Below, piece after piece: positions 4,464 through 28,827 of a DNA stretch of 30,402 nt. Within the stretch, counting starts at the first letter, position 1. Each line of letters opens with the position of its first letter. This DNA comes from a virus. The stretch lies in IMG/VR virus record IMGVR_UViG_3300032093_009701, positions 1 through 30,402 of that record. One strand, given 5' to 3'. A program made the translations under genes and the position numbers. The notes below the pieces were generated by a model. That model saw only the letters and a list, made by a program, of their open reading frames with translations, had not been told where the DNA came from and made no database searches.

Positions 4464-4464
4464 C

Positions 4465-4494: not shown

Positions 4495-4516
4495 ACTAAG
4501 GACAACATTCAGAACA

Positions 4517-4732: not shown

Positions 4733-4784
4733 GTAAATAGTCTCGGGAAGACTTTAAAAGCGCACTGGTCGGGAGCAACCCCTT

Positions 4785-5018: not shown

Positions 5019-5045
5019 GTGGTGGAGTCAAAATCTGACCCTTTC

Positions 5046-5148: not shown

Positions 5149-5184
5149 AAAGAGAGGAGTTATTTTAACTCCTCTCTTTTTTTG
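5149..5184 (+). terminator. Strong rho-independent terminator
   Basis: A perfect stem of at least 12 bp (5151-5162 with 5166-5177), a 3-nt loop, then seven or more T. It separates the tRNA/early region from the glycan island. Confidence 0.93.
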
Positions 5185-5241
5185 TCTATATAGAAAAACA
5201 AATATTATCTTGTTGTTGAAAATTTATTACTTATTACAAAA

Positions 5242-6785: not shown

Positions 6786-6791
6786 AATTTT

Positions 6792-7496: not shown

Positions 7497-7532
7497 TAGT
7501 AATTAATATTTATTTTTATTTTTATTTTTAAA

Positions 7533-8702: not shown

Positions 8703-8722
8703 TTTGTGATATAATATATACT

Positions 8723-9826: not shown

Positions 9827-10389
9827 CACTTAAACAAATTCTTCAAGATTTTAGTCTTGAACCCGATACGGATAAAAATTGTACTCACTGTTACATTGAG
9901 CAGTTTTATGAAAGTGCTTTTGCGCCTTATAGGAACAAAAAAATTTCTATTTTGGAAATTGGAATTAGTCTTGGGGCAAGTTTAAAATTATGGAAAGAGT
10001 ATTTTAAAAATTCTGTCCATGTTGTCGGTATAGATAACAGGGAACATGTTTTGTTAGAAAAGTATAAAAATATAGAAGGAGTCACTTATTATTTTGAAGA
10101 TGCATATAATCCAGAAATTGTAAAAAAATTACCTAAATTTAACATTATTATCGATGATGGATGTCATGATTTGGATACTCAGTTAAAGGCAATAGAGATT
10201 TATCTTCCTTTACTGAAAAGGGGTGGAATTTATATTATTGAAGATATTCAGCAACATTTATTTCCAAACTGTTATGAAGAATTTTTAAAAGTAATACCCG
10301 ACGAATTTAAAGAAAACCATAAATGGTTGGATTTAAGAAGTTATAAAAACCGACCAGATGATACTTTATTGGTTATAAACAAACTATGA
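9823..10389 (+). CDS. Class I SAM methyltransferase (TylF/CmcI-like)
   Basis: 188 aa. The opening THCYIEQFYES.F.PYRNKKISILEIGISLGASLKLW and later IIIDDGCHD resemble methyltransferases of macrocin/rhamnosyl O-methyltransferase type, in which the Asp-rich IIDDG motif holds a metal. LLKRGGIYIIEDIQ is the usual late strand. It is coupled by ATGA to the GME gene and to the next methyltransferase. The likely target is a sugar hydroxyl. Slightly short for the family but with the core motifs intact. Confidence 0.8.
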   Translation: MTLKQILQDFSLEPDTDKNCTHCYIEQFYESAFAPYRNKKISILEIGISLGASLKLWKEYFKNSVHVVGIDNREHVLLEKYKNIEGVTYYFEDAYNPEIVKKLPKFNIIIDDGCHDLDTQLKAIEIYLPLLKRGGIYIIEDIQQHLFPNCYEEFLKVIPDEFKENHKWLDLRSYKNRPDDTLLVINKL

Positions 10390-11108
10390 TTAGATTAGAA
10401 ACAAAACATCCTGTTGCATTGACATCACCGGATCATCTTTGTCCGCATGGGTGTGTAAGAGATAATTTTTCTTCATTAGATTTAATATCCGAAGTAACTG
10501 AATATTTTCAAGACAAAAAAATTGTCATGATTGATCTTGGGTGCTCTGGCGGACAATTTGTTGTTGATTTTATTCGACAAGGAGATATTGCAATTGGATT
10601 GGAGGGTAGTTCTCACGTACTGGAGGGTGAAGGAAAATCAAATTGGAAAAAATATCATAATAAAAATTTATTTTTGTGTGATATATCTGAAGATTATCAA
10701 CTATATTTGAACGATGAACCTCTGAAGGCAGACTTTATCCATTCCGAAGAGGTTTTTGAACATATTAGTGAAGACAAGATAGATAACCTATTGAAAAATA
10801 TTAGAAATCATTTAAAGACTGGCGGAATATGTGCTTTTGGCATTTCTCTAGTTCCAGACGTTCAAGTTAGGGATTCTAATGATAATATTGTAGAACCTCC
10901 TTATGATGAAAGTGATTCTTCTCTAAAATTTTATAAACTACATCAATCAGTTTTTCCTGCTGATTGGTGGAGAGATAAACTGATTGAAAATGGATTTGAA
11001 ATTTTAAAAGGTGGAAAAAATGACCAAAACCATTTTGGATATATTTTTAATAGTACTGTGAGGTGGGATTACTCTGGAAGTGTTTATATCTGCTGTAAAG
11101 TAAAATAA
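10386..11108 (+). CDS. Class I SAM-dependent methyltransferase
   Basis: 240 aa. Motif I is MIDLGCSGGQFV (about residues 47-58), followed by IGLEGS, an acid-rich CDISEDY segment and ADFIHSEEVFEHISEDKIDNLL, where EVFEHI is typical of methyltransferase 11/23 proteins. LKTGGICAFGIS is the post-motif strand. Substrate unknown, presumably a glycan residue. Coupled by ATGA to the preceding gene; 16 nt precede the next. Confidence 0.82.
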   Translation: MIRLETKHPVALTSPDHLCPHGCVRDNFSSLDLISEVTEYFQDKKIVMIDLGCSGGQFVVDFIRQGDIAIGLEGSSHVLEGEGKSNWKKYHNKNLFLCDISEDYQLYLNDEPLKADFIHSEEVFEHISEDKIDNLLKNIRNHLKTGGICAFGISLVPDVQVRDSNDNIVEPPYDESDSSLKFYKLHQSVFPADWWRDKLIENGFEILKGGKNDQNHFGYIFNSTVRWDYSGSVYICCKVK

Positions 11109-11124
11109 AAATAGGTAGTTTTTT

Positions 11125-11973
11125 ATGAAAGTAACAGTATTAGGAAGTTCTGGTCAGGTTGGTGCATATCTAACTGAATACCTCAGAAATAAAAATTATG
11201 AGGTAAATGAGTTTGATGTAGTTAATGGTCCAGAACATGATATGACAATTATTCCAAATCAAAACTTGGAAGACAATATTAAAGATTCAGACTTTATTTT
11301 CTTTCTTGCATTCGATGTTGGTGGGTCTCGATATCTCAAGAAGTATCAACATACGTTTCAATTCATTGATAATAATGCTCGATTAATGGCAAATGCCTTT
11401 GGTCTTCTAAAAAAGTATAATAAGAGGTTTGTATTTGCTTCATCGCAGATGAGTAATATGAGTTATTCCCCTTATGGTGTTCTTAAGAATGTGGGAGAAC
11501 TTTATACTAAATCTCTGAATGGTCTTATCGTTAAATTCTGGAATGTGTATGGAATAGAGAGGGACCATGAAAAGGCACACGTCATCACAGACTTTATCCG
11601 TAAGGGATTTGAAACTGGTGTAATTGATATGCTCACTGATGGGCAAGAAGAACGTGAGTTTCTTTATGCGGAAGATTGTTGCGAAGCTCTTGAATCTATT
11701 ATGAACAATTTTGACGAATTTACTTCTGAAGACAATCTTCATATAACAAGTTTTCGGTCTACGAAAATTATTGATATAGCAAGCATTATTGCTGGACAAT
11801 TTAATCTTATTGGAAAAACAGTAAAATTAGAACCTTCTTTGGAAAAGGATAGTGTTCAAATGGATAAAAAAAATAGACCAGATGCATATATTATGAAATG
11901 GTGGATGCCAAAAACAACTATAGAATCTGGTATTTCAAAAATATTTGAGGTAATGAAAAATGAGCGTTTATGA
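11125..11973 (+). CDS. SDR-type NAD-dependent epimerase/dehydratase
   Basis: 282 aa. The N-terminal Rossmann motif is GSSGQVG (7-13). FASSQMSNMSYSPYGVLKNVGELY carries the Ser and YxxxK catalytic residues. VKFWNVYG and EEREFLYAEDCCEALE match the extended SDR sugar-nucleotide epimerase group. Substrate not assignable. A possible Shine-Dalgarno AGGTAG lies 8 nt before the ATG, one of the few visible in the island. It overlaps the GT17 gene by 14 nt. Confidence 0.83.
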   Translation: MKVTVLGSSGQVGAYLTEYLRNKNYEVNEFDVVNGPEHDMTIIPNQNLEDNIKDSDFIFFLAFDVGGSRYLKKYQHTFQFIDNNARLMANAFGLLKKYNKRFVFASSQMSNMSYSPYGVLKNVGELYTKSLNGLIVKFWNVYGIERDHEKAHVITDFIRKGFETGVIDMLTDGQEEREFLYAEDCCEALESIMNNFDEFTSEDNLHITSFRSTKIIDIASIIAGQFNLIGKTVKLEPSLEKDSVQMDKKNRPDAYIMKWWMPKTTIESGISKIFEVMKNERL

Positions 11974-12736
11974 TTGTTTTATATTCAACCATGAATTGGA
12001 ACTTCTTGAAATTAGATTAAATATCTTAGATAAGTATGTCGATAAATTTATCTTAACTGAAGGAGACACTACATTTTCGGGAAACCCAAAGGAAAGTATT
12101 TACCTGCAAAATAAAGATAAGTTTTCTAAGTGGGAAGATAAAATAGTTCATAATTATATCAATGTTCCAGAAGTAGAAAGTCCCTGGGATCGTGAAATAT
12201 ACTCAAGAAATTCAGTTAAAAATTTAAATATTTTTAAAGATGAAGATTTAATCTTGACAAGTGATATTGATGAGATTCCAAACCCAGAAGTTTTGGAGCA
12301 TAAAGATAAGTGGATAACTGATAGTTCTCATTTTACATTTCAGCAAAATTGTTATGTTTATTATCTTAATAATTTTTACTCTGGCAATTGGTTTGGAACA
12401 AGAGCATGTACTTACAAGTATTTAAAAAATACTACTGTTGATGATATTAGGGAAGCGACAGAAGACGACAATAAGTTAACTGGATCAATAATTACAAATG
12501 GGGGATGGCATTTCACTTATTGTGGCGGTGAAGAAATGATTAGAAAAAAGATTGATTCTTTTTGTGATTTGCAGTATAATACTCCTGAGGTCAAAAATAA
12601 TATAATCAATAATATCTCCAACAATAAAGATATATTTTTTAGATATTGGATGGAATATAAAACAGTAGAACTTGATGATAGTTTTCCTGATTATATTGTG
12701 AAAAATAAAGAAAAGTATTCGCATTTAATTAAATGA
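11960..12736 (+). CDS. Glycosyltransferase family 17-like protein
   Basis: 258 aa. The start VYDCFIFNHELELLEIRLNIL and KFILTEGDTTFSGNPK match GT17, whose known members transfer GlcNAc. ILTSDIDEIPNPEVL supplies a DxDE metal/nucleotide-binding motif, and GGWHFTYCGG is conserved near the C-terminus. No signal peptide or membrane span, so it is cytosolic. Overlaps both neighbours. Donor and acceptor are unknown. Confidence 0.85.
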   Translation: MSVYDCFIFNHELELLEIRLNILDKYVDKFILTEGDTTFSGNPKESIYLQNKDKFSKWEDKIVHNYINVPEVESPWDREIYSRNSVKNLNIFKDEDLILTSDIDEIPNPEVLEHKDKWITDSSHFTFQQNCYVYYLNNFYSGNWFGTRACTYKYLKNTTVDDIREATEDDNKLTGSIITNGGWHFTYCGGEEMIRKKIDSFCDLQYNTPEVKNNIINNISNNKDIFFRYWMEYKTVELDDSFPDYIVKNKEKYSHLIK

Positions 12737-13701
12737 TTGTATCTGAAATTTATAGTGGTTCTGGATTGGGAAATCAATTGTGGAATCTAGTCGTTCCCAG
12801 AATTATTGCAGAACGCCACGGGTATGAATGGGGTGTTAAAAAATCAAACCCATTTAAAGGATCTCAGTTCATGTCAAAATATGATTTTGGCAAAAAAGTT
12901 GTAGGTGGATATGGACCAGAGGGTGGACCACCAACACAACTTCCTAAGGGAATCGCAAATTATTACAAAGAAAGGTTTGATCCATATCCACCAGAAATGG
13001 GTGGAGATGACGCTATGATTTTTGATGACTATCTTTGGAATAATCTTGAAGACAATACAAAAATTGAAGGATGTTTTCAGAAAATTGGATATATTAAAGA
13101 TAGAAAAGATGATATTATCGAATGGTTAAAAACAGATTTCATATTTACTGATTTTTCTAAAGATGATATCTGCGTAATTCAATTTAGAGGAGGAGATTAT
13201 CTTACTGGAAGTGCTTGGTGCCCACCAGAATATTATCATAATGCAGCAAAAATAATACAGGGAATAAATCCCAATATGAAATTTGTTGTAGTGACAGATG
13301 ACCCAGTTAATGCTCAAAAGTTTATTCCTTGGGCAACAATTGTCGGTTCTGCAATTATGGAAGAGAAAGATACACTTCAGGGGAGCATTGGATGGTACAA
13401 GTATCCTGGTGGTCCTATTGGAGTTGATTATTCAATTCTAAACAATGCAAAGTATGCTATTATATCTGCATCTACTTTTTCTTTTTGGCCTTGTTGGACT
13501 AATACTAAGTTTAAAACTATTGTCGCACCAAAGTATTGGACTGATTTTAAGATTTCTAATGGATGGTGGAGGGGTGATGATAATATAGTTGACGAATGGT
13601 TATATGTTGATATGAATGGTAAACCAATGATAGGCACTGACTGCAGAATAGAATATAATGATTATCGCTCCAAAAATTCTTTTTACGCTAACCTAAAATG
13701 A
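12733..13701 (+). CDS. GT11/fucosyltransferase-like glycosyltransferase
   Basis: 322 aa. The opening GSGLGNQLWNL resembles the G-x-GNQ(L/M) motif of GT11 alpha-1,2-fucosyltransferases. IQFRGGDYLTG corresponds to the HxRRGDY donor-binding motif (first His replaced by Gln). DYSILNNAKYAIISASTFSFWPCW parallels the late conserved block. It is longer and more divergent than the two clear GT11 proteins at 16150 and 18500, with a Gly/Pro-rich insert (about residues 55-80). GDP-sugar use is inferred. Confidence 0.75.
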   Translation: MIVSEIYSGSGLGNQLWNLVVPRIIAERHGYEWGVKKSNPFKGSQFMSKYDFGKKVVGGYGPEGGPPTQLPKGIANYYKERFDPYPPEMGGDDAMIFDDYLWNNLEDNTKIEGCFQKIGYIKDRKDDIIEWLKTDFIFTDFSKDDICVIQFRGGDYLTGSAWCPPEYYHNAAKIIQGINPNMKFVVVTDDPVNAQKFIPWATIVGSAIMEEKDTLQGSIGWYKYPGGPIGVDYSILNNAKYAIISASTFSFWPCWTNTKFKTIVAPKYWTDFKISNGWWRGDDNIVDEWLYVDMNGKPMIGTDCRIEYNDYRSKNSFYANLK

Positions 13702-14768
13702 AAAAAGTAAAAATTTATACATATTCCCACAACAGACCTGATTTTATCGAACTTCAGTATAACACTATTAAACGACATGTAAAAGATGACTTTGAATTTA
13801 TTGTTTTCAATAATGAAAGGGGCGGTGGCGATGGTGGATTTGATTCAAATAAAATAGAACAAATCAATTCAATATGCGAAAAATTGAACATTGAATGTAT
13901 CAGAGTAGAATTAGATCCAGAACTTCAATACATGAATGGAGAAAAAATGTTTGAAGGAGATGAGTATTTGAATGGAAACATTGCATGTGCTTATTCCTAT
14001 ACTTGGGGTTGGAAAAATTACATTTGTAAAAATGATTGTCTGACAGTTATTCTTGATTCGGATATGTTCTTGATAAAGGACGTATCATTTGTTGATATAA
14101 TGGAAGGATATAATTTTTCATATGTACCCTCATATAGATACAATAAAAAATATGTAAATGAAGATAACCGAGGTGAAATAGCTTTCAAATATCCTTGGAA
14201 CGGATTTGTCATGGCTGATATCCCAAATATGCCAAATCCAAGTGAAATTAGTTGGGGATATGGGAAGATTAATGGAATCGCAGTAGACGTTGGGGGAGAG
14301 GTTTATAATTATCTTCAAAAATATGAAGATCAACTTAATCAACTTTATGTTGACCAATGGGGATTGTTAGTTGATATCAACCCTCCTTATGAAATTTGTA
14401 TAAATGGTTGTTCCCAAATGTATGCAGATTTTGAAGAATGTACAGTGCAGATTAACGATTACCAGCATTCAAATACTAAAACCTTTCCGCATCAAACTGA
14501 CAGGGATAATTACTGGGAATATGTTCACGATAACTATTCTAAGATAATTGAAATTTCTAGGAAAAATGAATTTCCTAGACCTACATATGTTGACTTTATT
14601 AAATTAGAAAAGGATGAAAATGTAATTACAGACTCTTTTATATTCCATTATAAAAACGCAAGTAATACTTTACCCTGGATGAATGACCAATACAATTATT
14701 ATAAAACAATTGCTTTGGACAAGTTTTTAAATTTATTTCAATTACAAAAAAGAATTTTAGGAGATTGA
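13698..14768 (+). CDS. Putative GT-A glycosyltransferase
   Basis: 356 aa. It starts with a GT-A-like strand (KIYTYSHNRPDF), and CLTVILDSDMFLIKDVS gives a DxD metal-binding motif near residues 118-120. The middle region has many aromatic residues. No CAZy family can be named with confidence. No membrane span. It is translationally coupled to the preceding GT and ends in a sequence (AGGAGAT) that doubles as the ribosome binding site of the next gene. Confidence 0.68.
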   Translation: MKKVKIYTYSHNRPDFIELQYNTIKRHVKDDFEFIVFNNERGGGDGGFDSNKIEQINSICEKLNIECIRVELDPELQYMNGEKMFEGDEYLNGNIACAYSYTWGWKNYICKNDCLTVILDSDMFLIKDVSFVDIMEGYNFSYVPSYRYNKKYVNEDNRGEIAFKYPWNGFVMADIPNMPNPSEISWGYGKINGIAVDVGGEVYNYLQKYEDQLNQLYVDQWGLLVDINPPYEICINGCSQMYADFEECTVQINDYQHSNTKTFPHQTDRDNYWEYVHDNYSKIIEISRKNEFPRPTYVDFIKLEKDENVITDSFIFHYKNASNTLPWMNDQYNYYKTIALDKFLNLFQLQKRILGD

Positions 14769-14769
14769 C

Positions 14770-15492
14770 ATGGGAATTTCTGTAGATGAGATTAAATCAT
14801 TAATTGGCGAAAAAGAAAAAATTGTAATTTTCGAAGTTGGTTGTGCTGATGGCAGAGATACCCGTCAGTTTCTTAATAAATTTGGAGATAATATTAAAAT
14901 TTACACTTTCGATCCAGAACCAATTAACATTAAAGCAATGACTGAGTTGGGAGTCGAAAATTGTGTGGGTGATTTAAACGATGATATTGTTTCTGATTCT
15001 AGGCATATTTTTCACCCATATGCAATGAGTGACACTGATGGTAAAGAAACATTTTATAGATCGAGAGATACTGGATACGATGATAAAGGATATAGTAGGG
15101 GTAGGTACTCTGGTTCAATTCACAAACCTGTAGATCAACTTAAGGGGTGGCCTCATATTGTGTTCGATGACAGCGCGGAAGTGGAGACTAGATCTTTAGA
15201 TAGTTTTTGCGAAGAGCATAATATAGAGCACATTGACTTCTTATGGATGGACACTCAAGGTGCTGAAGGAAAAATATTTGAGGGTGGCAAAAAAACATTG
15301 AAAAATGTCGATTATGTATATACTGAGTACTACAATCAGGATATGTATGAAAATCAGGTTTATTTTGAACAACTTCAAGAGTTGTTATCCGATTTTACTT
15401 TAATTGCTAATTGGAAGTATGTAGACTATGCTTATCCAGAATGTAATGGTGGCGATGCTTTGTTTGTGAGAAATGATGTTAAATCTTCCTGA
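14770..15492 (+). CDS. FkbM-family methyltransferase, second copy
   Basis: 240 aa. FEVGCADGRDTRQF is motif I and YTFDPEP the acidic strand. FLWMDTQGAEGKIFEGG and VDYVYTEYYNQDMYENQ are FkbM-type motifs. It is divergent from the copy at 6792, so it probably methylates a different residue. AGGAG, 6 nt before the ATG, is a good Shine-Dalgarno formed by the end of the upstream gene. It overlaps the next ORF by 20 nt. Confidence 0.86.
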   Translation: MGISVDEIKSLIGEKEKIVIFEVGCADGRDTRQFLNKFGDNIKIYTFDPEPINIKAMTELGVENCVGDLNDDIVSDSRHIFHPYAMSDTDGKETFYRSRDTGYDDKGYSRGRYSGSIHKPVDQLKGWPHIVFDDSAEVETRSLDSFCEEHNIEHIDFLWMDTQGAEGKIFEGGKKTLKNVDYVYTEYYNQDMYENQVYFEQLQELLSDFTLIANWKYVDYAYPECNGGDALFVRNDVKSS

Positions 15493-16153
15493 TGTAACTC
15501 TAATTTGTGTCTCTTCTGTAAACTTTGAGCATACTTTATATGCTTTTCAAAAAAGTATGCAAAAAATTAATTTTGGAGATGTTAAACTTGTAACCGATCA
15601 AAATCCTTCGGGTTTTATTGAAAATGGAATTTCTATAGAAAAATGCAATCCAATTACTTCTATAGATTCGTATAGTCATTATATGATCTTTGATTTGTAT
15701 AGGCATGTAAACACTTCTCATTGTCTTGTTATTCAAGCTGATGGATTTGTAATAAATCCTGAGCAATGGGATCCTCTTTGGTTAACATATGACTATATTG
15801 GAGCACCTTGGGAATATGTTGATCACTCTTATCTTGACCCATGGGGAAATCATCACAGGGTTGGTAATGGGGGATTTTCTCTAAGAAGTAAAAAACTTTT
15901 AGAAGTCCCTTTAAATGCCTATGTTCATTTTGATGTGAATTGGGGAAAATTTTATAAGCATATGAACGCGAATGATACTGCCGAGGATGGTTGTATTTGT
16001 GTACATAATAGACACATTTATGAAGTTCTTGGTTGTAAATTCGCCCCAGTTGAAGTAGCTTCTAGGTTTTCTCATGAAAAACCACTTCCAGAAACGAAGG
16101 GAATTAAACCATTCGGTTTTCATTATCACTTACCACCAGGCACAAAGTTATGA
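15473..16153 (+). CDS. DUF5672-like putative glycosyltransferase
   Basis: 226 aa. CLVIQADGFVINPEQWDPLWLTYDYIGAPW followed by VGNGGFSLRSKKLLE is the DUF5672 pattern, found in uncharacterised glycosyltransferases; QxDGF likely acts as the metal/donor site. It starts within the preceding gene (20-nt overlap; ATGATG gives two adjacent starts). Its ATGA overlap leads to the GT11 gene. Confidence 0.8.
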   Translation: MMLNLPDVTLICVSSVNFEHTLYAFQKSMQKINFGDVKLVTDQNPSGFIENGISIEKCNPITSIDSYSHYMIFDLYRHVNTSHCLVIQADGFVINPEQWDPLWLTYDYIGAPWEYVDHSYLDPWGNHHRVGNGGFSLRSKKLLEVPLNAYVHFDVNWGKFYKHMNANDTAEDGCICVHNRHIYEVLGCKFAPVEVASRFSHEKPLPETKGIKPFGFHYHLPPGTKL

Positions 16154-16935
16154 TAGGATATAATCATTTAGGAAAAAACGGAAGACTTGGAAATCAAATG
16201 TTTCAATATGCAGCATTGAGGGGCATTGCTGCTAAACATGGATATGATTTTATGATACCTGAATCTAATTTTGAAAATGAATGGAATCAGCACCAATTAT
16301 TTGAAGCATTCACGTTACCTAATCTAAAAAATACTGGGTATGTTTCTGGAGACTTTTATAAAGAAGAAGAAAATCAATCACACGTATTTAACCTAGAATA
16401 TGTTAATAACTGTCCAGATAACGTAAGTCTTTATGGATTTTTTCAGACAGAAAAATATTTTAAAAATATATCTGATAGTATTCGTGAAGATTTTACTTTT
16501 AAAGATGAAATTTTAAAACCATGCAAAGAAGAATTTAACTTTGATAAAATTGTTTCTCTTCATATAAGAAGAGGTGATTATGTCAATAAATCATACTATC
16601 ATCCATTGTGTGAGTTGGAATATTATAAGGAATCTCTAGAAAAATTTGATTCAAGTATTCCTGTTATAATCTTTTCAGATGATCCAAAGTGGTGTAAGAC
16701 TCAAGATTTATTTTCTTCTGACCGTTTTATGATTTCTGACTCTGGTTGGAATTTAATAGATCTCTGTTTAATGTCCATGTCCACTCACCATATTATCGCA
16801 AATTCTTCTTTTTCGTGGTGGGGTGCTTGGTTATCTGGATCTAGTCAAGTTATTGCTCCTAAAAAATGGTATGGACCAGCTGCCAAATCTGTATCTACTG
16901 TTGATTTGATTCCAAAAACATGGAAAGTTCTGTAA
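16150..16935 (+). CDS. GT11 alpha-1,2-fucosyltransferase-like
   Basis: 261 aa. GRLGNQMFQYAALRGIAAKHG is the N-terminal GT11 block, LHIRRGDY (about residues 138-145) the GDP-fucose-binding motif, and ANSSFSWWGAWLS with VIAPKKWYGP the C-terminal motif. It transfers L-fucose, or a similar GDP-sugar, to a glycan hydroxyl. It is closely similar to the gene at 18500, sharing SLYGFFQTEKYF and VIIFSD. No GDP-fucose synthesis genes are seen; GDP-L-galactose from the GME at 8723 is a possible alternative donor. Confidence 0.9.
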   Translation: MIGYNHLGKNGRLGNQMFQYAALRGIAAKHGYDFMIPESNFENEWNQHQLFEAFTLPNLKNTGYVSGDFYKEEENQSHVFNLEYVNNCPDNVSLYGFFQTEKYFKNISDSIREDFTFKDEILKPCKEEFNFDKIVSLHIRRGDYVNKSYYHPLCELEYYKESLEKFDSSIPVIIFSDDPKWCKTQDLFSSDRFMISDSGWNLIDLCLMSMSTHHIIANSSFSWWGAWLSGSSQVIAPKKWYGPAAKSVSTVDLIPKTWKVL

Positions 16936-17690
16936 AAGTTTCTATCGCAATACCTGCATATGCTCATGGCAATGCAGGTGTTCTATATTTAAAAGATGCT
17001 TTACAATCTATAGAAGAACAAAATTTTTCGGATTATGAAGTTGTCATATCTGATCATTCTGAAAGTAATATTCTTTTAAATTTGTGTGAAGAATACTCTA
17101 AAAAAATTAAAGTGGTTTACATTAAAAATTTTTATGGCAAGGGCATTCCTACATTTAATGCAAATTATTGCTTAGATTATTGCTCTGGAAAATATATAAA
17201 AATTTTACACCATGATGATTTTTTTGTATCAAAGTGTGCATTAGAAAAAATAGTTTCTTCCTTGGAAGAAAGTGGTAAATCCTGGTTAGTAAATGGATTT
17301 AATCATACTTATGACGGGAAAAATTTTTTTAATGAGAAAATTCCTCAATATCCTGACCACCTTTTAGTTGGAAATAATCTCCTTGGTGCTCCTACTAATA
17401 TTACTATTAGGAATGACTGTAAAGAATACTTTGATACAAATATAACTATGGGAATTGACCATGAGTGGTATCACCGTCTGAGAATGAAGTATGGATTGCC
17501 TTATTTTTTAAATGATGTTTTAACTACAAGTAGGATAAGAGAAGATAGAGTTTCTGCGAAATTTTCTAATAACTATGACATAGTTATTGAAGCAGATGGA
17601 TCTTCTTGGCAATTCATACAGAGTGAATTTGAATATATACAAAACAAACATTCAGAATTTTTTAAAACCTGGAAATATCCAAATGATTGA
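16920..17690 (+). CDS. GT2-family glycosyltransferase
   Basis: 256 aa. VSIAIPAYAHG starts the GT-A fold, NFSDYEVVISDHS is the nucleotide-binding strand, and YIKILHHDDFF supplies the DD metal motif. GIDHEWYHRL resembles the acceptor/catalytic region (D-E) of GT2 enzymes. No transmembrane segment, so it is a peripheral, non-processive transferase. It overlaps GT11 by 16 nt and the next gene by 8 nt. Confidence 0.87.
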   Translation: MESSVKVSIAIPAYAHGNAGVLYLKDALQSIEEQNFSDYEVVISDHSESNILLNLCEEYSKKIKVVYIKNFYGKGIPTFNANYCLDYCSGKYIKILHHDDFFVSKCALEKIVSSLEESGKSWLVNGFNHTYDGKNFFNEKIPQYPDHLLVGNNLLGAPTNITIRNDCKEYFDTNITMGIDHEWYHRLRMKYGLPYFLNDVLTTSRIREDRVSAKFSNNYDIVIEADGSSWQFIQSEFEYIQNKHSEFFKTWKYPND

Positions 17691-18513
17691 TTTATCAAAA
17701 TCCACTTTCATCATTCCTTTAAGAATTGAATCTGAAGATAGAATGAGAAATATTATTACCTTGTTATGTTTTTTACTTGGAAATTTTAATACAAAAATAG
17801 TAGTAAAAGAGGTAGATAATAATCCTGTATTTGAACATAAAGTTATTCCGCAAATAAAAGAGTTTCTTGGTAAAGAAGAAATTTCTTTGTTGCATATTTT
17901 TGAACATTCCGATGATCCTGTATTTTATAGGATGCAGATTTTGAATGAAATGATTTCTCTCTGTGATACTGAAATAGTTGTTAATTACGATTGCGATGTT
18001 CTTCTACCTTTGAAATCATATGTTAGTTCATATAATATGATTTTGAATGAAGGATATGATCTTGTTTATCCCTATGGAAATGGAACATACCAAAAACAAA
18101 TACTAGCAAACGACGCTTTAGTTTCTGATTTTCTTAATCAGAATTACGATTTTAATATATTGGATTCAAAGTCTAATATCTCTACTTCTGATTTTGGTTG
18201 GGTTCAATTTTTTAATAGATTGTCCTATATTGAAGGTGGTATGGAGAATGAAAATTTCAGAGGTTCTTCTCCAGAAGACAAAGAGAGATTTTATAGATTT
18301 AAAACTTTAGGGTATAATGTAGGTAGAGTTGATAATTTGATTTATCATTTGGAACATAGTAGAGGAAGAAATTCTTGGCCAGCATCGATTCAAGGAAATC
18401 CATATATGAAACAAAATTTTGAATTGTGGGAGACACTTCAGAAAATGAGTTCTAATCAACTTAAAGAATATTATTCTTATCAATCTTATCTTAAAAAATA
18501 TGTTGGCATTTAA
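17683..18513 (+). CDS. Putative GT-A glycosyltransferase
   Basis: 276 aa from ATG 17683, which overlaps the upstream stop by 8 nt; an in-frame ATG at 17587 would overlap by 104 nt and is unlikely. STFIIPLRIESEDRMRNI starts a GT-A-like fold, and IVVNYDCDVLLPL carries a DxD motif. FGWVQFFNR plus FRGSSPEDKERFYRF resembles the galactosyltransferase C-terminal type (GT7/GT27-like W-G/E-D block). The family assignment is tentative. It overlaps the next gene by 14 nt. Confidence 0.68.
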   Translation: MIDLSKSTFIIPLRIESEDRMRNIITLLCFLLGNFNTKIVVKEVDNNPVFEHKVIPQIKEFLGKEEISLLHIFEHSDDPVFYRMQILNEMISLCDTEIVVNYDCDVLLPLKSYVSSYNMILNEGYDLVYPYGNGTYQKQILANDALVSDFLNQNYDFNILDSKSNISTSDFGWVQFFNRLSYIEGGMENENFRGSSPEDKERFYRFKTLGYNVGRVDNLIYHLEHSRGRNSWPASIQGNPYMKQNFELWETLQKMSSNQLKEYYSYQSYLKKYVGI

Positions 18514-19357
18514 TCATATAGGAAATCTTGGCAGATTAGGCAATCAAATGTTTGAGTATGCTGCCCTAAGGGGAATTGCATCATATCATCGTTATGACTG
18601 GTGCATTCCTCCTTTTAACATATCTGGAATAGAAAATTATAGTCTCCATAAGTGCTTTAAACTACAATCAGTAAAGGAAGAAAATCTAGCAGTTATGGAA
18701 GATTTTTCATACATTCAGGAAAAATCTTTTGATTTTGATTCGGATTTATTTGAAAATTGTCCGGATAACATAAGTTTATATGGATTTTTTCAAACAGAAA
18801 AATACTTTAGACATATTTCAAATGAAATTCGTAGTGATTTTACTTTTATAGAACAATATTTAAATCCCTGTAAGGAAATGATATCTCAATATCATAACTT
18901 AGAACCCATTATGCTTCACGTCAGACGAGGTGATCCCAATTTAGTGGATTCTAGGGGATTTAAATGGTCTTATACTCAGTGTTCTGGTCAACATCCACCT
19001 CAACCAATTGAGTATTATGAAGAAGCATTGAAATTTTTTGATAAAGATCAACCAGTTATTATTTTTTCAGATTCTCCTGAGTGGTGTAAAAAACAAGAAC
19101 TTTTTAATAGCGATAGATTTCTTATTTCTGAACCAACGGATAAATATCCAGACGGATCTTATACTCCTTACATTGATTTATGTTTAATGTCTTTATGTTC
19201 ACATTCTATAATTGCAAACAGTAGTTTATCTTGGTGGGGTGCTTGGTTGCAAAATAATCCCAACAAAAAAGTAATATGTCCAAAAATGTGGTTTGGACCT
19301 TTATATGCCGATAAGAATACCAGAGATCTTTATGTTGATAATTGGATTGTAATCTAA
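18500..19357 (+). CDS. GT11 alpha-1,2-fucosyltransferase-like, second copy
   Basis: 285 aa. GRLGNQMFEYAALRGIASYH, HVRRGD and ANSSLSWWGAWLQ are GT11 motifs. It is a paralogue of the gene at 16150, with an added segment after the RRGD motif (SRGFKWSYTQCSGQHPPQP). The motif reads RRGDPN instead of RRGDY. The pair probably arose by tandem duplication and may add two different linkages. Overlaps both neighbours. Confidence 0.9.
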   Translation: MLAFNHIGNLGRLGNQMFEYAALRGIASYHRYDWCIPPFNISGIENYSLHKCFKLQSVKEENLAVMEDFSYIQEKSFDFDSDLFENCPDNISLYGFFQTEKYFRHISNEIRSDFTFIEQYLNPCKEMISQYHNLEPIMLHVRRGDPNLVDSRGFKWSYTQCSGQHPPQPIEYYEEALKFFDKDQPVIIFSDSPEWCKKQELFNSDRFLISEPTDKYPDGSYTPYIDLCLMSLCSHSIIANSSLSWWGAWLQNNPNKKVICPKMWFGPLYADKNTRDLYVDNWIVI

Positions 19358-20304
19358 TGTACGTTTCTTCTTGCCCCTTAAGAGTTTCATTATTTGGTGG
19401 TTCGACAGATAATCCATATTTTGTGGAACAATATGGATATGGATCTGTTATAAGTTTTACTTGCGATTTAAAAACATACATTACACTTCACGAAGATAAA
19501 ATTGGGTACAATAAAGAAGGTAATAAGTATATTATCAATTATTCAAAAAGAGAAGAAGTTCTTCATACTAAAGAAATTCAAAATGAATTAGTTAGAGTTG
19601 TATTAGAATACTTTAAAGTTTCTCCTTCTCTTGTTTCTATGACTAGTGATGCCTACTCTCAGGGAAGTGGATTAGCTTCATCATCTTCTTATATTATCTC
19701 CTTGATTAAGTGTATTTCTTTGTCAAACAATTTACATCTAACTGATATAGAAATTTGTGAAATTGCTTATAATTTGGAAAGAGAATTTAACCCATACTGT
19801 GGATATCAAGATCCTTATGGTTGTGGGATAGGTGGATTTAAGAGAATCGAATTCCAAAAAGGTGGAATTATAAAGTACAATTTTTTATCAACCGAACTTT
19901 TTGAGTATTATGATGCACATTTAATTTTTACTGGTGTTACGCGCAATTCTAAAAAAATCCTCAAAGATATAAGTTGCAATCTTGATAAAATTTCTCCTCT
20001 TTTACCCACACTTGAAAAAGCTTATGATTCAATCATTAATAAAGATTATGAGGAATTTTTATATCTTTTAAATGAGAGTTGGGACCAAAAGAAAAAAACA
20101 AGTTCTATGATCAGTGAGAATTCAAAAATCATGGAAATTGACAATTATTTAATAAATAATCCTCTAGTAATTTCGCATAAATTATGCGGCGCAGGAAATG
20201 GGGGATTTTTCTTAACTTTTTCAAAGAAGAATAAATTGACTTTACCGTTTTCTTCTATTAAAATAAATGTATCTTTGGATGGTGTAAAGGGGAAAAAATT
20301 ATGA
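19357..20304 (+). CDS. GHMP sugar kinase (HddA-like heptose kinase)
   Basis: 315 aa from ATG 19357, which shares a base with the preceding TAA. RVSLFGGSTD (9-18) is the GHMP N-terminal motif, SQGSGLASSSS (101-111) the ATP phosphate loop, and AGNGGFFLTF the third motif. The sequence resembles D-glycero-alpha-D-manno-heptose 7-phosphate kinases (HddA) and related sugar kinases. The following SIS isomerase and fused phosphatase/nucleotidyltransferase support a heptose role. A fucokinase-like role is the alternative. Confidence 0.82.
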   Translation: MYVSSCPLRVSLFGGSTDNPYFVEQYGYGSVISFTCDLKTYITLHEDKIGYNKEGNKYIINYSKREEVLHTKEIQNELVRVVLEYFKVSPSLVSMTSDAYSQGSGLASSSSYIISLIKCISLSNNLHLTDIEICEIAYNLEREFNPYCGYQDPYGCGIGGFKRIEFQKGGIIKYNFLSTELFEYYDAHLIFTGVTRNSKKILKDISCNLDKISPLLPTLEKAYDSIINKDYEEFLYLLNESWDQKKKTSSMISENSKIMEIDNYLINNPLVISHKLCGAGNGGFFLTFSKKNKLTLPFSSIKINVSLDGVKGKKL

Positions 20305-20338
20305 TACCATTAAATTCTACTTTGTATTTAAAGCGAAA

Positions 20339-20845
20339 ATGAATAATCCTTTCAGCGAATATATTAAAGCACTTCAATGTGCCAATATGGAAAAAGAATT
20401 TGAAAAGTTCAAAGATGCCTTTGGAAAATATAATAATATTATTATTCTTGGAAATGGTGGGAGCAATTCTGTTGCTTCGCATATTTCGCAAGATTATGTG
20501 AAATTTCACAACAAAAATTCTATGGTATTTTCTGACCCGTCAATGTTAACATGTTTTGTCAATGATTTTGGGATGGAGAATGCTTACTGTAAATTTCTTC
20601 AGTATTATGCAAAAGCAGATACTCTTTGTATTCTAATTAGTTCTGGAGGAGAGTCTAAAAATATTATTAATTGTATTAAATATTGTGAAAATACTTCAAT
20701 TCCATATGGGATTTTGACTGGATTTAATGCTTCCAATAAAGCAAGAAGCATTGCTAATAGTTCTCTTTGGGATTACCACATTGGCAGTAATGATTATGGA
20801 ATTGTTGAGTGTGTTCATCAAATATTTCTTCATGGAGTTGTATGA
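20339..20845 (+). CDS. SIS-domain phosphosugar isomerase (GmhA-like)
   Basis: 168 aa. GNGGSNSVASHISQDYVK (38-55) is the signature of phosphoheptose isomerases, and CILISSGGESKNIINCI the second SIS phosphate-binding segment. GmhA converts sedoheptulose 7-phosphate to D-glycero-D-manno-heptose 7-phosphate. It is a little shorter than typical GmhA (about 190 aa). It follows the kinase by 34 nt and overlaps the next gene by ATGA. Sedoheptulose 7-phosphate is a Calvin/pentose phosphate intermediate abundant in the host. Confidence 0.83.
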   Translation: MNNPFSEYIKALQCANMEKEFEKFKDAFGKYNNIIILGNGGSNSVASHISQDYVKFHNKNSMVFSDPSMLTCFVNDFGMENAYCKFLQYYAKADTLCILISSGGESKNIINCIKYCENTSIPYGILTGFNASNKARSIANSSLWDYHIGSNDYGIVECVHQIFLHGVV

Positions 20846-21597
20846 GATATTGTTTTGATATTGATGGAACTCTTTGTTATACTCCAAACAAAGAAAATGG
20901 AAACCCCGATTATGAAAATGCTCAACCATTTTCGTTTATGGTTAAGCAAGTAAATCGTTTGTATGATGAAGGTAATTATATCATTATGCAAACTGCCAGA
21001 GGAAAGGGTTCTGGTATCGACCACACTAAACTAACTAAAAAACAACTTAGTGATTGGGGATTTAAGTACCATGAATTATTTCCAATGTTTTGTAAACCGA
21101 CTGCAGATATTTTTATTGATGATAAGGGAGTAAATGTTGAAGATTGGAAAAAGCAGCAACCTCTAAAAAGAGGTATTATTGCTGGAGCTTTTGATATAAT
21201 TCATCCTGGATATGTTAGAATGTTTAAAGATTCTAAAAAATATTGTAATCATTTAACAATAGCTCTTCACGTTGATCCGTCTTTAGAAAGAAAACATAAA
21301 CTTGAACCAGTCCATTCTATTGCTGAAAGAACAGAAATTTTATTGTCTATGAAAAACATAGATAGTGTGGTATATTATTCTGTTGAAGACGAATTTCATG
21401 ATTATCTTAAGAGCGGTAAATATCAGGTTAGATTTTTAGGAACAGATTATCAAGATGGTTCTTATTCTGGAAAAGAAATTAATATCGATATTATTTGGTT
21501 AGATAGACAATCTCATAATTATTCTTCAACCAAATTAAAAACACAAATTTATGAATCTATTTTAAATAAAAAAATACGGTATAAAGAATATGACTAA
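20842..21597 (+). CDS. Fused HAD phosphatase and cytidylyltransferase-fold nucleotidyltransferase
   Basis: 251 aa, two domains. Residues 1-105 are a minimal HAD phosphatase: FDIDGT (5-10), QTARG (T51), K85, and FIDD (91-94). Residues 110-235 are a nucleotidyltransferase of the TagD/HldE C-terminal type: GAFDIIHPGY (115-124), AERTEIL (161-167) and SSTKLK (228-233). The usual HxGH is HxGY here. In heptose pathways, phosphatase (GmhB) and nucleotidyltransferase (HldE-C or HddC) act in succession, so the fusion would channel heptose 1,7-bisphosphate to NDP-heptose. Start chosen at ATG 20842 because it overlaps the upstream TGA. Alternative: a TagD-like alditol-phosphate route. Confidence 0.85.
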   Translation: MRYCFDIDGTLCYTPNKENGNPDYENAQPFSFMVKQVNRLYDEGNYIIMQTARGKGSGIDHTKLTKKQLSDWGFKYHELFPMFCKPTADIFIDDKGVNVEDWKKQQPLKRGIIAGAFDIIHPGYVRMFKDSKKYCNHLTIALHVDPSLERKHKLEPVHSIAERTEILLSMKNIDSVVYYSVEDEFHDYLKSGKYQVRFLGTDYQDGSYSGKEINIDIIWLDRQSHNYSSTKLKTQIYESILNKKIRYKEYD

Positions 21598-22489
21598 ATG
21601 TTTGGTTACAGGGGCAGCAGGATTTATTGGATCCAATCTTGTTGATGAATTGGTTAGATCTGGATACGAAGTAATTGCAATTGATAATGAAAGTGCAGAG
21701 TCTAATGAAGAATTTTACTGGAATCGCAAATCTGAAAATTACAAATATGATATTTTAGATTATGAAAAAACAAGACCTCTTTATGACGGAGTTGATTACG
21801 TATTTCATTTAGCTGCGGAGTCGAGAATACAACCTGCAATTTTAAATCCCATTGAAGCAGTTACAAAAAATTGTGTTGGTACTTGTACAGTTCTTCAATG
21901 TTCTAGAGAGGCTGGGGTAAAAAAAGTTATTTACTCTTCAACTTCTTCTGGATATGGTTTTAATGAACCTCCTAATCATGAAGGACAACCCGACGACTGT
22001 TTGAATCCATATTCTGTATCTAAAGTTGCAGGTGAAAAACTCTGTTCAATGTATACAAAACTCTTTGGATTAAAAACCATAGTATTCCGATATTTTAATG
22101 TTTATGGAGAACGCTCTCCTATTAATGGACAATATGCTCCCGTTATTGGAATTTTCTTACGTCAACGTGCTGCTGGAGAATCATTAACCATAGTTGGTGA
22201 TGGTGAACAACGTAGAGATTTTACTCATGTTTCTGATGTTGTATCTGCAAATATTCTTGCCGCATTTAAAGATGTTGATTGTGAATACTATGGAGAAGTT
22301 TATAATGTTGGCAATAGTATTAACTATTCTATCAATGAAATTGCAAGTGCTATTTCTTCAAACAAAATTAACATTCCGCCAAGGATTGGTGAGGCGAGAA
22401 CTACTCTTGCAAATAATGGGAAATTGAAAACTGTTTTTGGATGGGATCCGAAAGTAAATTTAAAGGACTGGATTGATGGACAAAAATAA
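21590..22489 (+). CDS. NAD-dependent sugar-nucleotide epimerase (SDR)
   Basis: 299 aa. GAAGFIG (8-14) NAD site, FHLAAESRIQPAILNP, SSTSSGYG with YSVSK (catalytic Tyr/Lys), FRYFNVYGERSPINGQYAPVI and GDGEQRRDFTHVSDVV mark a GalE-like extended SDR. It could epimerise or dehydrate the NDP-heptose made just upstream, or act on UDP-sugars. It is 8 nt overlapped with the fused nucleotidyltransferase gene, supporting a shared pathway. Slightly short at the C-terminus. Confidence 0.87.
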   Translation: MTKCLVTGAAGFIGSNLVDELVRSGYEVIAIDNESAESNEEFYWNRKSENYKYDILDYEKTRPLYDGVDYVFHLAAESRIQPAILNPIEAVTKNCVGTCTVLQCSREAGVKKVIYSSTSSGYGFNEPPNHEGQPDDCLNPYSVSKVAGEKLCSMYTKLFGLKTIVFRYFNVYGERSPINGQYAPVIGIFLRQRAAGESLTIVGDGEQRRDFTHVSDVVSANILAAFKDVDCEYYGEVYNVGNSINYSINEIASAISSNKINIPPRIGEARTTLANNGKLKTVFGWDPKVNLKDWIDGQK

Positions 22490-23276
22490 ATCAACATACA
22501 AATTAAAAAATTTTGGTCCAATCTATTATTTGAATCTTGATGAGCAACCAGAAAGACGAAAATATATGGAAGACCAATTTCAATATTGGGAAATAGAAAA
22601 TTATACTAGAATATCTGCATACGATGGTCGTGAAGATGACTTAAGTGGTATTATTAAAGGAAAATATCCAGATATGATGTCTTCAAGTGAGATTGGATGT
22701 ACAACTTCTCACTTGAAGGCAATTAAGTATTGGATGGAAACCTCCGATAGTCCATATGCAATTATTATGGAAGATGACTGCAATTTAGATCTTGTAAAAT
22801 ACTGGAATTTTATTTGGCAGGATTTTTACTCTCATATTCCATATGATTGGGATGTGATTCAGTTGGCAATTATTTGTACTGGTGATATTCACGTTAAACT
22901 TCATAAAAGATTTGTAAATGATTTTTCTACAGCTTGTTACTTGATTACCAGACATCATGCAGAAAAACTTTTGAAGTTTCATGTTCGTGGTGATAAGTAT
23001 AAACTCGATAATGGAGTTAAACCACGTCCTGTTGCCGATGACTTGATTTATAATTCTGGAAATACCTATTCAATTCCTCTTCTTCTTTATAGGATTGAAT
23101 TGGGATCTAGTATTCATCCTGAACATATTGATGCTTTCCATAGAGGAAACCACAAGGCTCTTTCACAGTACTGGCAACAAAATGGCGCAAGTATTGATAT
23201 TAGAGATTATATGAATTATGATCCTTATTTGGGTCGGATAACAGAAAATTCTACTTTCCAACAACAAGACCCTTGA
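22476..23276 (+). CDS. GT25-family glycosyltransferase
   Basis: 266 aa from ATG 22476 (a TTG one codon earlier is possible). IYYLNLDEQPERRKYMEDQF is the N-terminal GT25 signature. SSEIGCTTSHLKAIKYW and YAIIMEDDCNL (EDD metal motif) are conserved in LPS and collagen-type GT25 enzymes. It is the last gene of the island; its end (TGA 23274-23276) overlaps the -35 box of the porin promoter. Confidence 0.87.
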   Translation: MDKNKSTYKLKNFGPIYYLNLDEQPERRKYMEDQFQYWEIENYTRISAYDGREDDLSGIIKGKYPDMMSSSEIGCTTSHLKAIKYWMETSDSPYAIIMEDDCNLDLVKYWNFIWQDFYSHIPYDWDVIQLAIICTGDIHVKLHKRFVNDFSTACYLITRHHAEKLLKFHVRGDKYKLDNGVKPRPVADDLIYNSGNTYSIPLLLYRIELGSSIHPEHIDAFHRGNHKALSQYWQQNGASIDIRDYMNYDPYLGRITENSTFQQQDP

Positions 23277-23370: not shown

Positions 23371-24837
23371 ATGAAACTCAAACAACTGATGCTTGCACCT
23401 GTTGCTATGGGAATGGTTGCTCCTGTTGCTGCGAATGCCGCAGATCTGAATATGACAGCAGTCAACCAATATTCCTCAGAACAGGTTACAAGCGTCACTC
23501 AATTCTCAGATGTCCGTCCTACTGATTGGGCATACCAAGCACTCAGCAACCTTGTAGAGCGTTATGGTTGCGTTGCTGGTTATCCTAATGGAACCTTTGG
23601 TGGTGGTCGTGCAATGACCCGCTATGAGGCAGCAGCATTGCTCAACGCTTGCCTGGATCGTGTGACTGAAGTTACTGATGAACTCAAGCGTCTGCAGGCA
23701 GAGTTTGCTCAAGAACTCGCTGTTCTTCGTGGCCGTGTAGATAAACTGGAAGCACAGGTTACCACTCTTGAAGCACAACAGTTCTCCACCACAACTAAAC
23801 TGCGTGGTGAAGCAAACTTTGTTCTTGGTGGCGTAGATAATTACCAAACCAAGGATGGCGACATCACTCACACTGCATTTAACTATGATCTGCGTTTGAA
23901 TCTGGACACTTCTTTCACTGGTAAGGATCTTCTCAAGACCCGTCTGCGTTCTTCTAACTTCAGCAGCAATCCTTTCGGTTCCAGTTCTTCAATCTTTAAA
24001 CTGGATAAAGCAGACAACACTGTTAGTGAAGTTGGCAACAACGTAGTTATTGACCGTCTGTATTATCAGTTCCCTGTGTTCAACGGTAGCACCACCCTGA
24101 CCGCTGGTGCTCTGGTTCGTAACACTGAAATGGCTTGGATTCCTACTGCTTATAAGTCAAACATTCTTGACTTCTTCCAAGTAGCAGGTGCTCCTGGTGT
24201 TTATAACAAGGCAACTGGTTCAGGTTTTGGTGTTCAGTATGGTAAGAAAGGTCTTGTTGCTGGTGTAAACTATGTGGCACAGAATGGTGCTGATAGTTCT
24301 ACTGGTGAGTTTGACAAGTCTGGTGCTCTTAATACCTTGGCACAAGTTGGTTATCGTGGTACTAACTGGGGTGCTGCTTTTGGTTATCGTTATGGTACTG
24401 AAGGTACTCGTGTCCGCACTTATAACGGTCTGAACGGTGCTTCTGGTGCTCTGGTTCCTGGTCAAACCTCTAATGGTTATGCCATCAACGCATATTGGCA
24501 ACCCACTCAATCTGGTTGGGTTCCCTCTATCTCTGGTGGTTATGGTTGGAACACTGTAAGTGGTACTCCTAGTGATGCTACGAACAGTCAATCCTGGTTT
24601 GCTGGTTTGACTTGGGATGATGTGTTTGTTGATGGTAACTCTGCTGGTGTTGCTATCGGTCAGGCACCTACTGGAGAAGATCTTGAAAAGGCAACTATGC
24701 TTGAGATCTTCTACAAGTATCAAGTATCTGATAACATCAGCGTCACTCCTGCTATCATCTACGGAAGTGACAATCAGCGCCTTGCTGATAACTCCTCTAA
24801 TTGGGGTGGCGTAATTCAGACAACTTTCAAGTTCTGA
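23371..24837 (+). CDS. SLH/OprB-type cyanobacterial outer-membrane porin
   Basis: 488 aa. Residues 1-23 form a Sec signal peptide with cleavage after ANA. An SLH domain follows (FSDVRPTDWAYQALSNL... about 45-95; in cyanobacteria it anchors to peptidoglycan-linked glycan). A coiled coil spans about 97-135, then a beta-barrel to the C-terminus, ending with the outer-membrane motif TTFKF. This is the SomA/Som porin architecture of marine Synechococcus. Full length with all domains, so probably functional. Codons look richer in G/C than the glycan island, suggesting acquisition from a host. It could keep nutrient uptake going during infection or change the surface seen by other phages. Confidence 0.92.
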   Translation: MKLKQLMLAPVAMGMVAPVAANAADLNMTAVNQYSSEQVTSVTQFSDVRPTDWAYQALSNLVERYGCVAGYPNGTFGGGRAMTRYEAAALLNACLDRVTEVTDELKRLQAEFAQELAVLRGRVDKLEAQVTTLEAQQFSTTTKLRGEANFVLGGVDNYQTKDGDITHTAFNYDLRLNLDTSFTGKDLLKTRLRSSNFSSNPFGSSSSIFKLDKADNTVSEVGNNVVIDRLYYQFPVFNGSTTLTAGALVRNTEMAWIPTAYKSNILDFFQVAGAPGVYNKATGSGFGVQYGKKGLVAGVNYVAQNGADSSTGEFDKSGALNTLAQVGYRGTNWGAAFGYRYGTEGTRVRTYNGLNGASGALVPGQTSNGYAINAYWQPTQSGWVPSISGGYGWNTVSGTPSDATNSQSWFAGLTWDDVFVDGNSAGVAIGQAPTGEDLEKATMLEIFYKYQVSDNISVTPAIIYGSDNQRLADNSSNWGGVIQTTFKF

Positions 24838-26148
<1,311 letters not shown>

Positions 26149-28196: not shown

Positions 28197-28312
28197 AAAA
28201 TCTTTTTAACGAGCGCAGTGAGCGTATTAATGGTTGGTTCGCAATGATTGGTTTCGTTGCAGCCGTTGGTTCTTACCTTATTACTGGTCAAATTATTCCT
28301 GGCGTGTTCTGA
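28193..28312 (+). CDS. hli: Short high-light-inducible protein
   Basis: 39 aa, nearly only the chlorophyll-binding helix: ERSERINGWFAMIGFVAAVG followed by SYLITGQIIPG. ERxNGxFAMIGF is the core Hli motif, with Trp in place of the usual Arg after NG. AAGGAG lies about 7 nt before the ATG at 28193. The ATG overlaps the upstream stop. It is a second, smaller Hli distinct from that at 27278. Confidence 0.9.
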   Translation: MKNLFNERSERINGWFAMIGFVAAVGSYLITGQIIPGVF

Positions 28313-28323
28313 TGGAGGTTTCT

Positions 28324-28827
28324 ATGAGAGCAGAAGGATATGAAATTCCTAATGTAGAATTTATTTTTCGTGAGAACAGTGAATTTGTAACTCGCACTTC
28401 TAAAGAACTTTTCGATGGAAAACGTGTGGTCTTGTTTAGTCTGCCTGGTGCTTTCACTCCTACTTGCAGTGCCTATCAGCTTCCTGGATTCGAAGAGAAA
28501 TACGACGACTTTATTGGTAGTGGCATCGACGATATTTACTGCATCTCTGTTAATGATGGGTTTGTGATGAATGCCTGGGCGAAAGGTCAAGGTATTGAGA
28601 AAGTAAAACTTATTCCAGACGGTAATGCATATTTTACTCGATCTATGGGAATGCTTGTAACTAAGTCTAATCTTGGTTTTGGAGATCGTTCTTGGCGTTA
28701 TGCTGCTGTGGTGAATGATGGAATTATTGAAAAGTTATTTGTAGAAGCAGGAAAACGGGATAATGCGGATACTGACCCATATGAGGTTACTAATCCAGAA
28801 ACTATTCTTTCTTATCTGAAAAGTTAA
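28324..28827 (+). CDS. Peroxiredoxin (Prx5 type)
   Basis: 167 aa from ATG 28324, set by the GGAGG at 28314-28318; an upstream ATG at 28312 has no such site. PGAFTPTCS (41-49) holds the peroxidatic Cys48 and Thr45, and SWRYAAVV carries the conserved Arg. KYDDFIGSGIDDIYCISVNDGFVMNAWAKGQ is the Prx5 family core. It reduces hydrogen peroxide and organic peroxides using thioredoxin, glutaredoxin or glutathione, and would limit photo-oxidative damage. A terminator follows. Confidence 0.92.
   Translation: MRAEGYEIPNVEFIFRENSEFVTRTSKELFDGKRVVLFSLPGAFTPTCSAYQLPGFEEKYDDFIGSGIDDIYCISVNDGFVMNAWAKGQGIEKVKLIPDGNAYFTRSMGMLVTKSNLGFGDRSWRYAAVVNDGIIEKLFVEAGKRDNADTDPYEVTNPETILSYLKS

Follow-up and report, generated by a model that had tools for sequence, protein, structure and literature searches.

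The window analysed here is a linear IMG/VR virus record (IMGVR_UViG_3300032093_009701) of 30,402 bases, which bears 18 tRNA genes and cyanophage-type genes (pstS, peroxiredoxin and endolysin). On its plus strand, at 19357–22489 and with short gaps or none between them, lie genes for a GHMP kinase, a GmhA-like SIS isomerase, an HAD phosphatase fused to a nucleotidyltransferase, and an SDR protein. These are the four genes, in the order, that an initial annotation had proposed from the DNA letters and that our open reading frames (ORFs) and domain calls confirm. In our judgement the cassette is probably a complete phage-encoded pathway to a nucleotide-activated heptose, and a real, conserved nucleoside diphosphate (NDP)-heptose pathway of this kind is probably functional.

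Likely starts are ATG codons at 19357 for the kinase (the listed ORF begins at TTG 19342), 20339 for the SIS isomerase, 20842 for the fused gene (listed from GTG 20809) and 21590 for the SDR. The genes had been described as mostly overlapping, which is true of the fused gene and its two neighbours (its ATGA start overlaps the stop codon of the SIS gene, and it shares 8 bases with the SDR) but not of kinase and SIS, which are separated by 34 bases.

Conservation and linkage of the four genes

Scanning IMG/VR with the fused protein yielded 17 loci and an alignment scan 104 candidates, 80 of which were kept; adding a phage isolate, a contig assigned to an Acidimicrobiaceae metagenome-assembled genome (MAG) and five host loci gives the 87 loci with the fused gene compared below. 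The SDR accompanies the fused gene in all 87, the SIS in 80 and the kinase in 73. Wherever SIS or kinase is missing, the available sequence starts within the cassette or only a little ahead of it, and every locus that is long enough holds the four genes. This linkage is not a matter of chance. The kinase and SIS genes adjoin in 58 loci; in 13 others they are set apart, in most cases by a single additional gene (for example, a methyltransferase). The cassette is under purifying selection, with near-invariant active-site positions: the median pairwise dN/dS (nonsynonymous over synonymous substitution rate, for pairs with dS of 0.1–1.2) is 0.185 for the kinase, 0.170 for the SIS, 0.184 for the fused gene and 0.210 for the SDR.

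This phage is not alone in having the gene set. Synechococcus phage SynMITS9220M01 (MT408532) carries the same four genes as gp204–gp207, with the same order and overlaps and 60–65% protein identity. Its authors list three of the four among heptose lipopolysaccharide (LPS) genes (PMC7378029); the fused gene is labelled ‘hypothetical protein’ and the pathway was not worked out. The same phage has a second heptose-like set (974–2977 of locus L019), in which a cupin accompanies an HddA-like kinase (gp196, 287 bits) and an HddC-like transferase (gp198). That the cassette might be virus-only was considered and rejected: one host copy, in genome G390, is chromosomal, on a 1.94-Mb contig and adjoining clpP and ilvC. 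The fused gene occurs in five of 400 genomes of the host family (Prochlorococcus-type) and in two of 386 across the phylum. In a phylogeny of the fused protein the viral rows group together, opposite the host rows, and the host/virus label changes once, the root being uncertain.

Identities of the encoded enzymes

The kinase (19357–20304, plus strand, 315 aa) is a GHMP-family sugar 1-kinase of the HddA/WcbL-like type. It matches Pfam GHMP_kinases_N (7e-8), its top NCBIfam family is HddA (1e-27), with 97.4 bits where the equivalog cutoff is 600, and its top PDB matches (1e-20 to 1e-22) are the putative heptokinases 4n3o and 3k85 and WcbL itself (4usk). WcbL activity is abolished by mutating R13, D22, S118–S120, Q162 or D163 (PMC4691232), and all seven essential residues have their equivalents here (R9, D18, S108–110, Q151 and D152), invariant in the 71–72 ungapped loci and in locus L128. 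The equivalent of Q162, a heptose-binding residue in WcbL, is thus among those retained. The alpha anomer appears to be the one that WcbL binds (PMC4691232), so by analogy the kinase probably yields an alpha-1,7-bisphosphate.

The SIS protein (20339–20845, plus strand, 168 aa) falls under the Pfam cutoff (3e-4, 21.1 bits versus 27), its top NCBIfam family is GmhA (2e-14), and its sequence matches are to GmhA models, with no match to the KpsF model at E 0.1. Its AlphaFold2 model (mean pLDDT 89.6), like that of the fused protein computed from alignments built without SynMITS9220M01 rows, has a GmhA-type fold, aligning with GmhA structures at Z 21–22.6 over ~164 residues, with DiaA at 21, with KdsD at 15.9 and with other SIS enzymes at 17 or less. 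DiaA shares the fold, which hence by itself is no proof of catalysis. The zinc ligands of GmhA (H64, E68, Q175 and H183) are reported to be fully conserved among orthologues (PMC5705639). Here two of the four are changed, H-E-Q-H being replaced by H-D-E-H (H48, D52, E157 and H165) in all ungapped rows of the 80 loci with a SIS. The same pattern recurs in Caulobacter phage Cr30, in a phage-like contig from an Acidimicrobiaceae MAG (L138) and in bacterial genomes with an HddA-like kinase and a GmhB domain, and is therefore a subfamily feature rather than a sign of decay. Thus the GmhA-like isomerase of the initial annotation stands as to fold but departs from GmhA at the metal site; on a strict test of sequence and model the protein is GmhA-like rather than GmhA, with activity on sedoheptulose 7-phosphate predicted. 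In L138 itself (4209–6220) the HddA-like kinase, the H-D-E-H SIS and a TagD-type transferase with an HAGH motif are separate genes.

The third gene (20842–21597, plus strand) encodes in a single ORF a bifunctional phosphatase–nucleotidyltransferase of 251 aa that matches phrog_1238 (3e-22) and phrog_7878 (2e-28) and was modelled with pLDDT 88.2. Its HAD domain (aa 1–105, 20842–21156) has the complete set of phosphatase motifs (D6xD8xT10, T51, K85 and D93D94), which are invariant in 86 loci save for one T51S and are lost in L128. The phosphatase called from the DNA letters is borne out in these motifs, while its presumed GmhB identity is not: the domain found no match to the GmhB family (TIGR00213) in the NCBIfam search, and it lies outside the GmhB_yaeD/histidinol-phosphatase group. 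Its nearest relatives are EcbF–BcbF, phrog_1238 and the ‘capsule biosynthesis protein’ of PDB entry 9iqw (44 bits). All structure matches listed for the fused model fall on the transferase domain, so that the HAD call draws on sequence and on viral predicted structures, with no PDB fold match; on these grounds we assign the domain to an EcbF/BcbF-like family and not to GmhB. Searching the literature for an EcbF/BcbF phosphatase returned only unrelated uses of those abbreviations.

The second domain (aa 108–251, 21163–21597) has the cytidylyltransferase-like fold of TagD and HldC, as its model aligns with TagD (1coz, Z 16.6), Staphylococcus aureus TagD (16.1), the Fom1 cytidylyltransferase (15.8) and HldC (14.1). 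By sequence it matches Pfam CTP_transf_like (6e-8, 33.5 bits; cutoff 21) and rfaE_dom_II (5e-15), and scores slightly higher with rfaE domain II, that is HldE (55.8 bits), than with TagD (39.6 bits). With fold leaning towards TagD and sequence towards HldE domain II, neither ATP nor CTP can be favoured as the predicted substrate. A TagD/HldE-type nucleotidyltransferase had been proposed, and the fold agrees with this; the HxGH signature expected of it is replaced by HPGY, whose H121 and Y124 are invariant in the 86 non-degenerate loci and in a jumbo-phage fusion. The latter, in LR756511 (5986–7362 of locus L022), joins a GHMP kinase to an HPGY nucleotidyltransferase in one ORF of 458 aa and so links those two pathway steps. 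A SIS of the cassette type was not found in this 595-kb record, and a GmhB-like match in it, considered as a phosphatase swap, was dropped when it proved to be a polynucleotide kinase-phosphatase with a P-loop N-terminus.

The last gene (21590–22489, plus strand, 299 aa) encodes an extended SDR nucleotide-sugar epimerase or dehydratase (Pfam Epimerase, 6e-57) with an SST motif and a Y141xxxK145 motif that are invariant across loci. The proposal of an SDR epimerase is upheld at the level of the extended SDR family and not as specifically HldD-like. GalE (142 bits) and LegB (137 bits) score above HldD (108 bits, where the heptose_epim cutoff is 274.6), all three being below their NCBIfam cutoffs.

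A candidate route to an activated heptose

From the gene identities, folds, catalytic-residue conservation, co-occurrence and purifying selection computed here, we infer a substrate, step order, nucleotide, anomer and purpose. The SIS isomerase would convert sedoheptulose 7-phosphate to an aldoheptose 7-phosphate, which the HddA-like kinase would phosphorylate at C1 to a 1,7-bisphosphate, probably the alpha anomer as for HddA and WcbL. The HAD domain of the fused protein would then remove the C7 phosphate, and its TagD/HldE-fold domain could couple the resulting heptose 1-phosphate to a nucleotide from CTP or ATP. The SDR may epimerise or oxidise the NDP-heptose, and the flanking glycosyltransferases and methyltransferases may use the product to assemble or cap a host-surface or virion glycan. 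The sequences and models are consistent with this step logic (isomerase, 1-kinase, phosphatase, nucleotidyltransferase, from sedoheptulose 7-phosphate), as initially proposed, and three of the enzymes have heptose families as their top NCBIfam matches (HddA, GmhA and rfaE domain II).

The initial annotation was also right that an HddA-type (GHMP) kinase beside a TagD/HldE-fold transferase fits neither the HldE route (ADP, beta) nor the HddC route (GDP, alpha). The cassette shares with the GDP-heptose route the step logic, the HddA-like GHMP kinase and the GmhA-like isomerase but differs in a phosphatase and a nucleotidyltransferase of other families, fused to one another; no NTP_transferase match, as expected of an HddC-type guanylyltransferase (GT-A fold), was found among the window ORFs scanned (5242–27190). 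With the ADP-glycero-beta-manno-heptose pathway (GmhA, HldE, GmhB and HldD) it has in common a nucleotidyltransferase of the HldE-II/TagD superfamily, whereas its kinase is GHMP rather than PfkB, its HAD is not GmhB, its signature is HPGY rather than HxGH and its SDR is not HldD-like. Closer to hand, the heptose-like genes of cyanophages P-SSM2 and S-CAM1 (T4-GC 304–308) include the same HAD family and nucleotidyltransferase superfamily, but there HAD and an HPGH transferase are separate genes with an HldE-domain-I (PfkB) kinase between them, and no GmhA-like SIS was found in either genome. That the HAD family there keeps company with an HldE-type kinase and nucleotidyltransferase counts in favour of heptose. 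We found the HAD–nucleotidyltransferase fusion in no characterised pathway, and neither the fused enzyme nor the mixed route was described in the literature searched, which covered few subscription journals or preprints.

Bacteria of the host GTDB phylum provide a parallel. Six loci (L175, L176, L177, L178, L180 and L194) combine a fused sugar nucleotidyltransferase–GmhB protein with an HddA-like kinase (189 bits in such same-phylum cassettes), an H-D-E-H SIS (gmhA, 108 bits) and usually an SDR. The four functions are thus shared with the phage cassette; in the bacterial fusion (e.g., L175 and L176) both domains are of unrelated families and in reverse order, making it an analogue and not a homologue of the phage protein. 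A further hint comes from host genome G265, whose HAD domain lacks the motif-II Thr and the first motif-IV Asp and where an over-cutoff GmhB lies 1.9 kb past the SDR, GmhB being found in none of the four other host genomes, all with an intact HAD. A GmhB beside a degenerate HAD supports the pathway, suggestively only.

Several points weigh against a heptose pathway. The NCBIfam scores are all far below the equivalog cutoffs. The apparent GmhB swap is a single case; among 265 genomes of that genus, eight have a GmhB over the cutoff and 58 have weaker matches. Because the same HAD family adjoins an arabinose-5-phosphate isomerase in T4-like phages, this domain is no proof of heptose. As to loss of key residues, named at the outset as grounds for refuting the pathway, the seven WcbL residues and the HAD motifs are kept, two GmhA ligands are altered and the second His of HxGH is Tyr in the nucleotidyltransferase domain.

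The foremost alternative, which we regard as improbable, is that the cassette activates a pentose (e.g., arabinose, made from ribulose 5-phosphate through the 5-phosphate and the 1,5-bisphosphate of arabinose), perhaps to modify DNA bases, a role inferred in RB69-type phages. Activation of a pentose follows the same step logic, and in Kosakonia phage 305 and Serratia phage 4S this HAD family is flanked on one side by a SIS of KpsF/KdsD type with a nucleotidyltransferase-like protein of 562 aa and on the other by a dCMP hydroxymethylase or thymidylate synthase, a block that the RB69 literature ties to UDP-arabinose (PMC6024577). The RB69-type module of T4-like phages resembles the cassette in bringing together a SIS isomerase, a same-family HAD and a nucleotidyltransferase; it differs in having a KpsF/KdsD-type SIS, a GT-A-fold (GlmU-like) transferase and DNA-modification neighbours. 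The SIS of those phages scores 112 bits as KpsF/KdsD, whereas that of the window is not a KpsF/KdsD-type arabinose-5-phosphate isomerase but GmhA-type by both sequence and structure (Z 21–22 versus 15.9 for KdsD). The kinase is of HddA type, and among the window ORFs scanned with Pfam no base-modification gene was recognised, the neighbours of the cassette being glycan genes. An ordinary ADP-beta-heptose route with a substituted kinase, yielding ADP-glycero-beta-manno-heptose with the SDR as an HldD-like 6-epimerase, also seems to us improbable. The higher rfaE domain II score of the nucleotidyltransferase speaks for it, as does the annotation of the SynMITS9220M01 SDR as ADP-heptose 6-epimerase; set against these are the action of GHMP heptokinases on the alpha anomer (PMC4691232), a fold comparison that puts TagD above HldC, GalE and LegB models that outscore HldD, and six viral contigs in which a separate HldE-type kinase and HPGH transferase adjoin the cassette and would be redundant.

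That the same series of four reactions handles a different sugar (an octose, a deoxyheptose precursor or a hexose) appears very unlikely. The H-D-E-H and HPGY substitutions, fixed in the family, could signal an altered substrate, but in bacteria the H-D-E-H SIS also accompanies evident HddA-like and GmhB-like enzymes, an indication that the intermediate is a 1,7-bisphosphate. LPS-type gene clusters have been recognised in cyanophages from P-SSM2 onwards, and Sullivan et al., 2010 (PMC3037559) left undecided whether they are functional or ‘stuffer DNA’. For this cassette we find non-functional filler scarcely credible in view of dN/dS medians of 0.17–0.22 in the four genes, near-invariant catalytic residues and conserved linkage.

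Returning to heptose activation, the six viral contigs just mentioned have, immediately ahead of the cassette, genes for an HldE-type kinase, an HPGH transferase and a cupin (in L139 these and the cassette together span 7461–12346), and no second HAD or SIS was recognised in them. This suggests that one isomerase and one phosphatase serve two kinases and two transferases, an arrangement that would make sense if the products were different anomers or nucleotide sugars. We therefore raise, as a tentative idea somewhat short of even odds, a third heptose-activation route in which an alpha-1,7-bisphosphate would become CDP- or ADP-alpha-heptose via the fusion, through neither HldE nor HddC. A single phage could then produce both anomers, the one recognised isomerase and phosphatase of those contigs also serving the HldE-type kinase and HPGH transferase.

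As a compact, complete and strongly conserved candidate pathway, the cassette can be put to the test with just four proteins and a single kind of substrate that is sold commercially. If the heptose pathway is correct, phages would divert a Calvin/pentose-phosphate intermediate into glycan building, and a new phosphatase–nucleotidyltransferase enzyme may yield NDP-heptose outside the two textbook routes. A function would also be defined for a widespread HAD family mislabelled in phage records as ‘phosphoheptose isomerase’, a label that looks wrong for an HAD protein. In two T4-like phage loci (L142, 2517–5390; L143, 2384–5453) the phrog_1238 HAD adjoins an arabinose-5-phosphate isomerase. In these phages it could supply the phosphatase for arabinose 1,5-bisphosphate that is missing from the RB69-type UDP-arabinose pathway.

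Surroundings of the cassette

The cassette sits near the end of a low-GC glycan gene island (6012–23276, plus strand) that encodes, by Pfam matches of its ORFs, glycosyltransferases, methyltransferases, a UDP-sugar dehydrogenase and epimerases, and in which GC is ~0.29–0.36 (~6.0–23.3 kb) against 0.37–0.43 on the flanks. It occupies the interval between a family 11 glycosyltransferase upstream (18500–19357, plus strand; Pfam 2e-22) and a family 25, LPS-type glycosyltransferase downstream (22473–23276, plus strand; 1.5e-14). An NAD synthetase (5242–6015; phrog_11189) borders the island on its other side.

Elsewhere in the window, the 18 tRNA genes form a single array at 1–4464 with an HNH-endonuclease-like ORF inside it (1366–1875). 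The gene at 23371–24837 encodes an outer-membrane porin with SLH and OprB domains that resembles that of phage S-SRM01 (78% DNA identity), and is followed by a full S-adenosylhomocysteine hydrolase gene (24895–26148) on this phage record; neither has a PHROG match. The peroxiredoxin (28234–28827) may be a fusion, its first 32 residues being a weak match to the high-light-inducible protein family.

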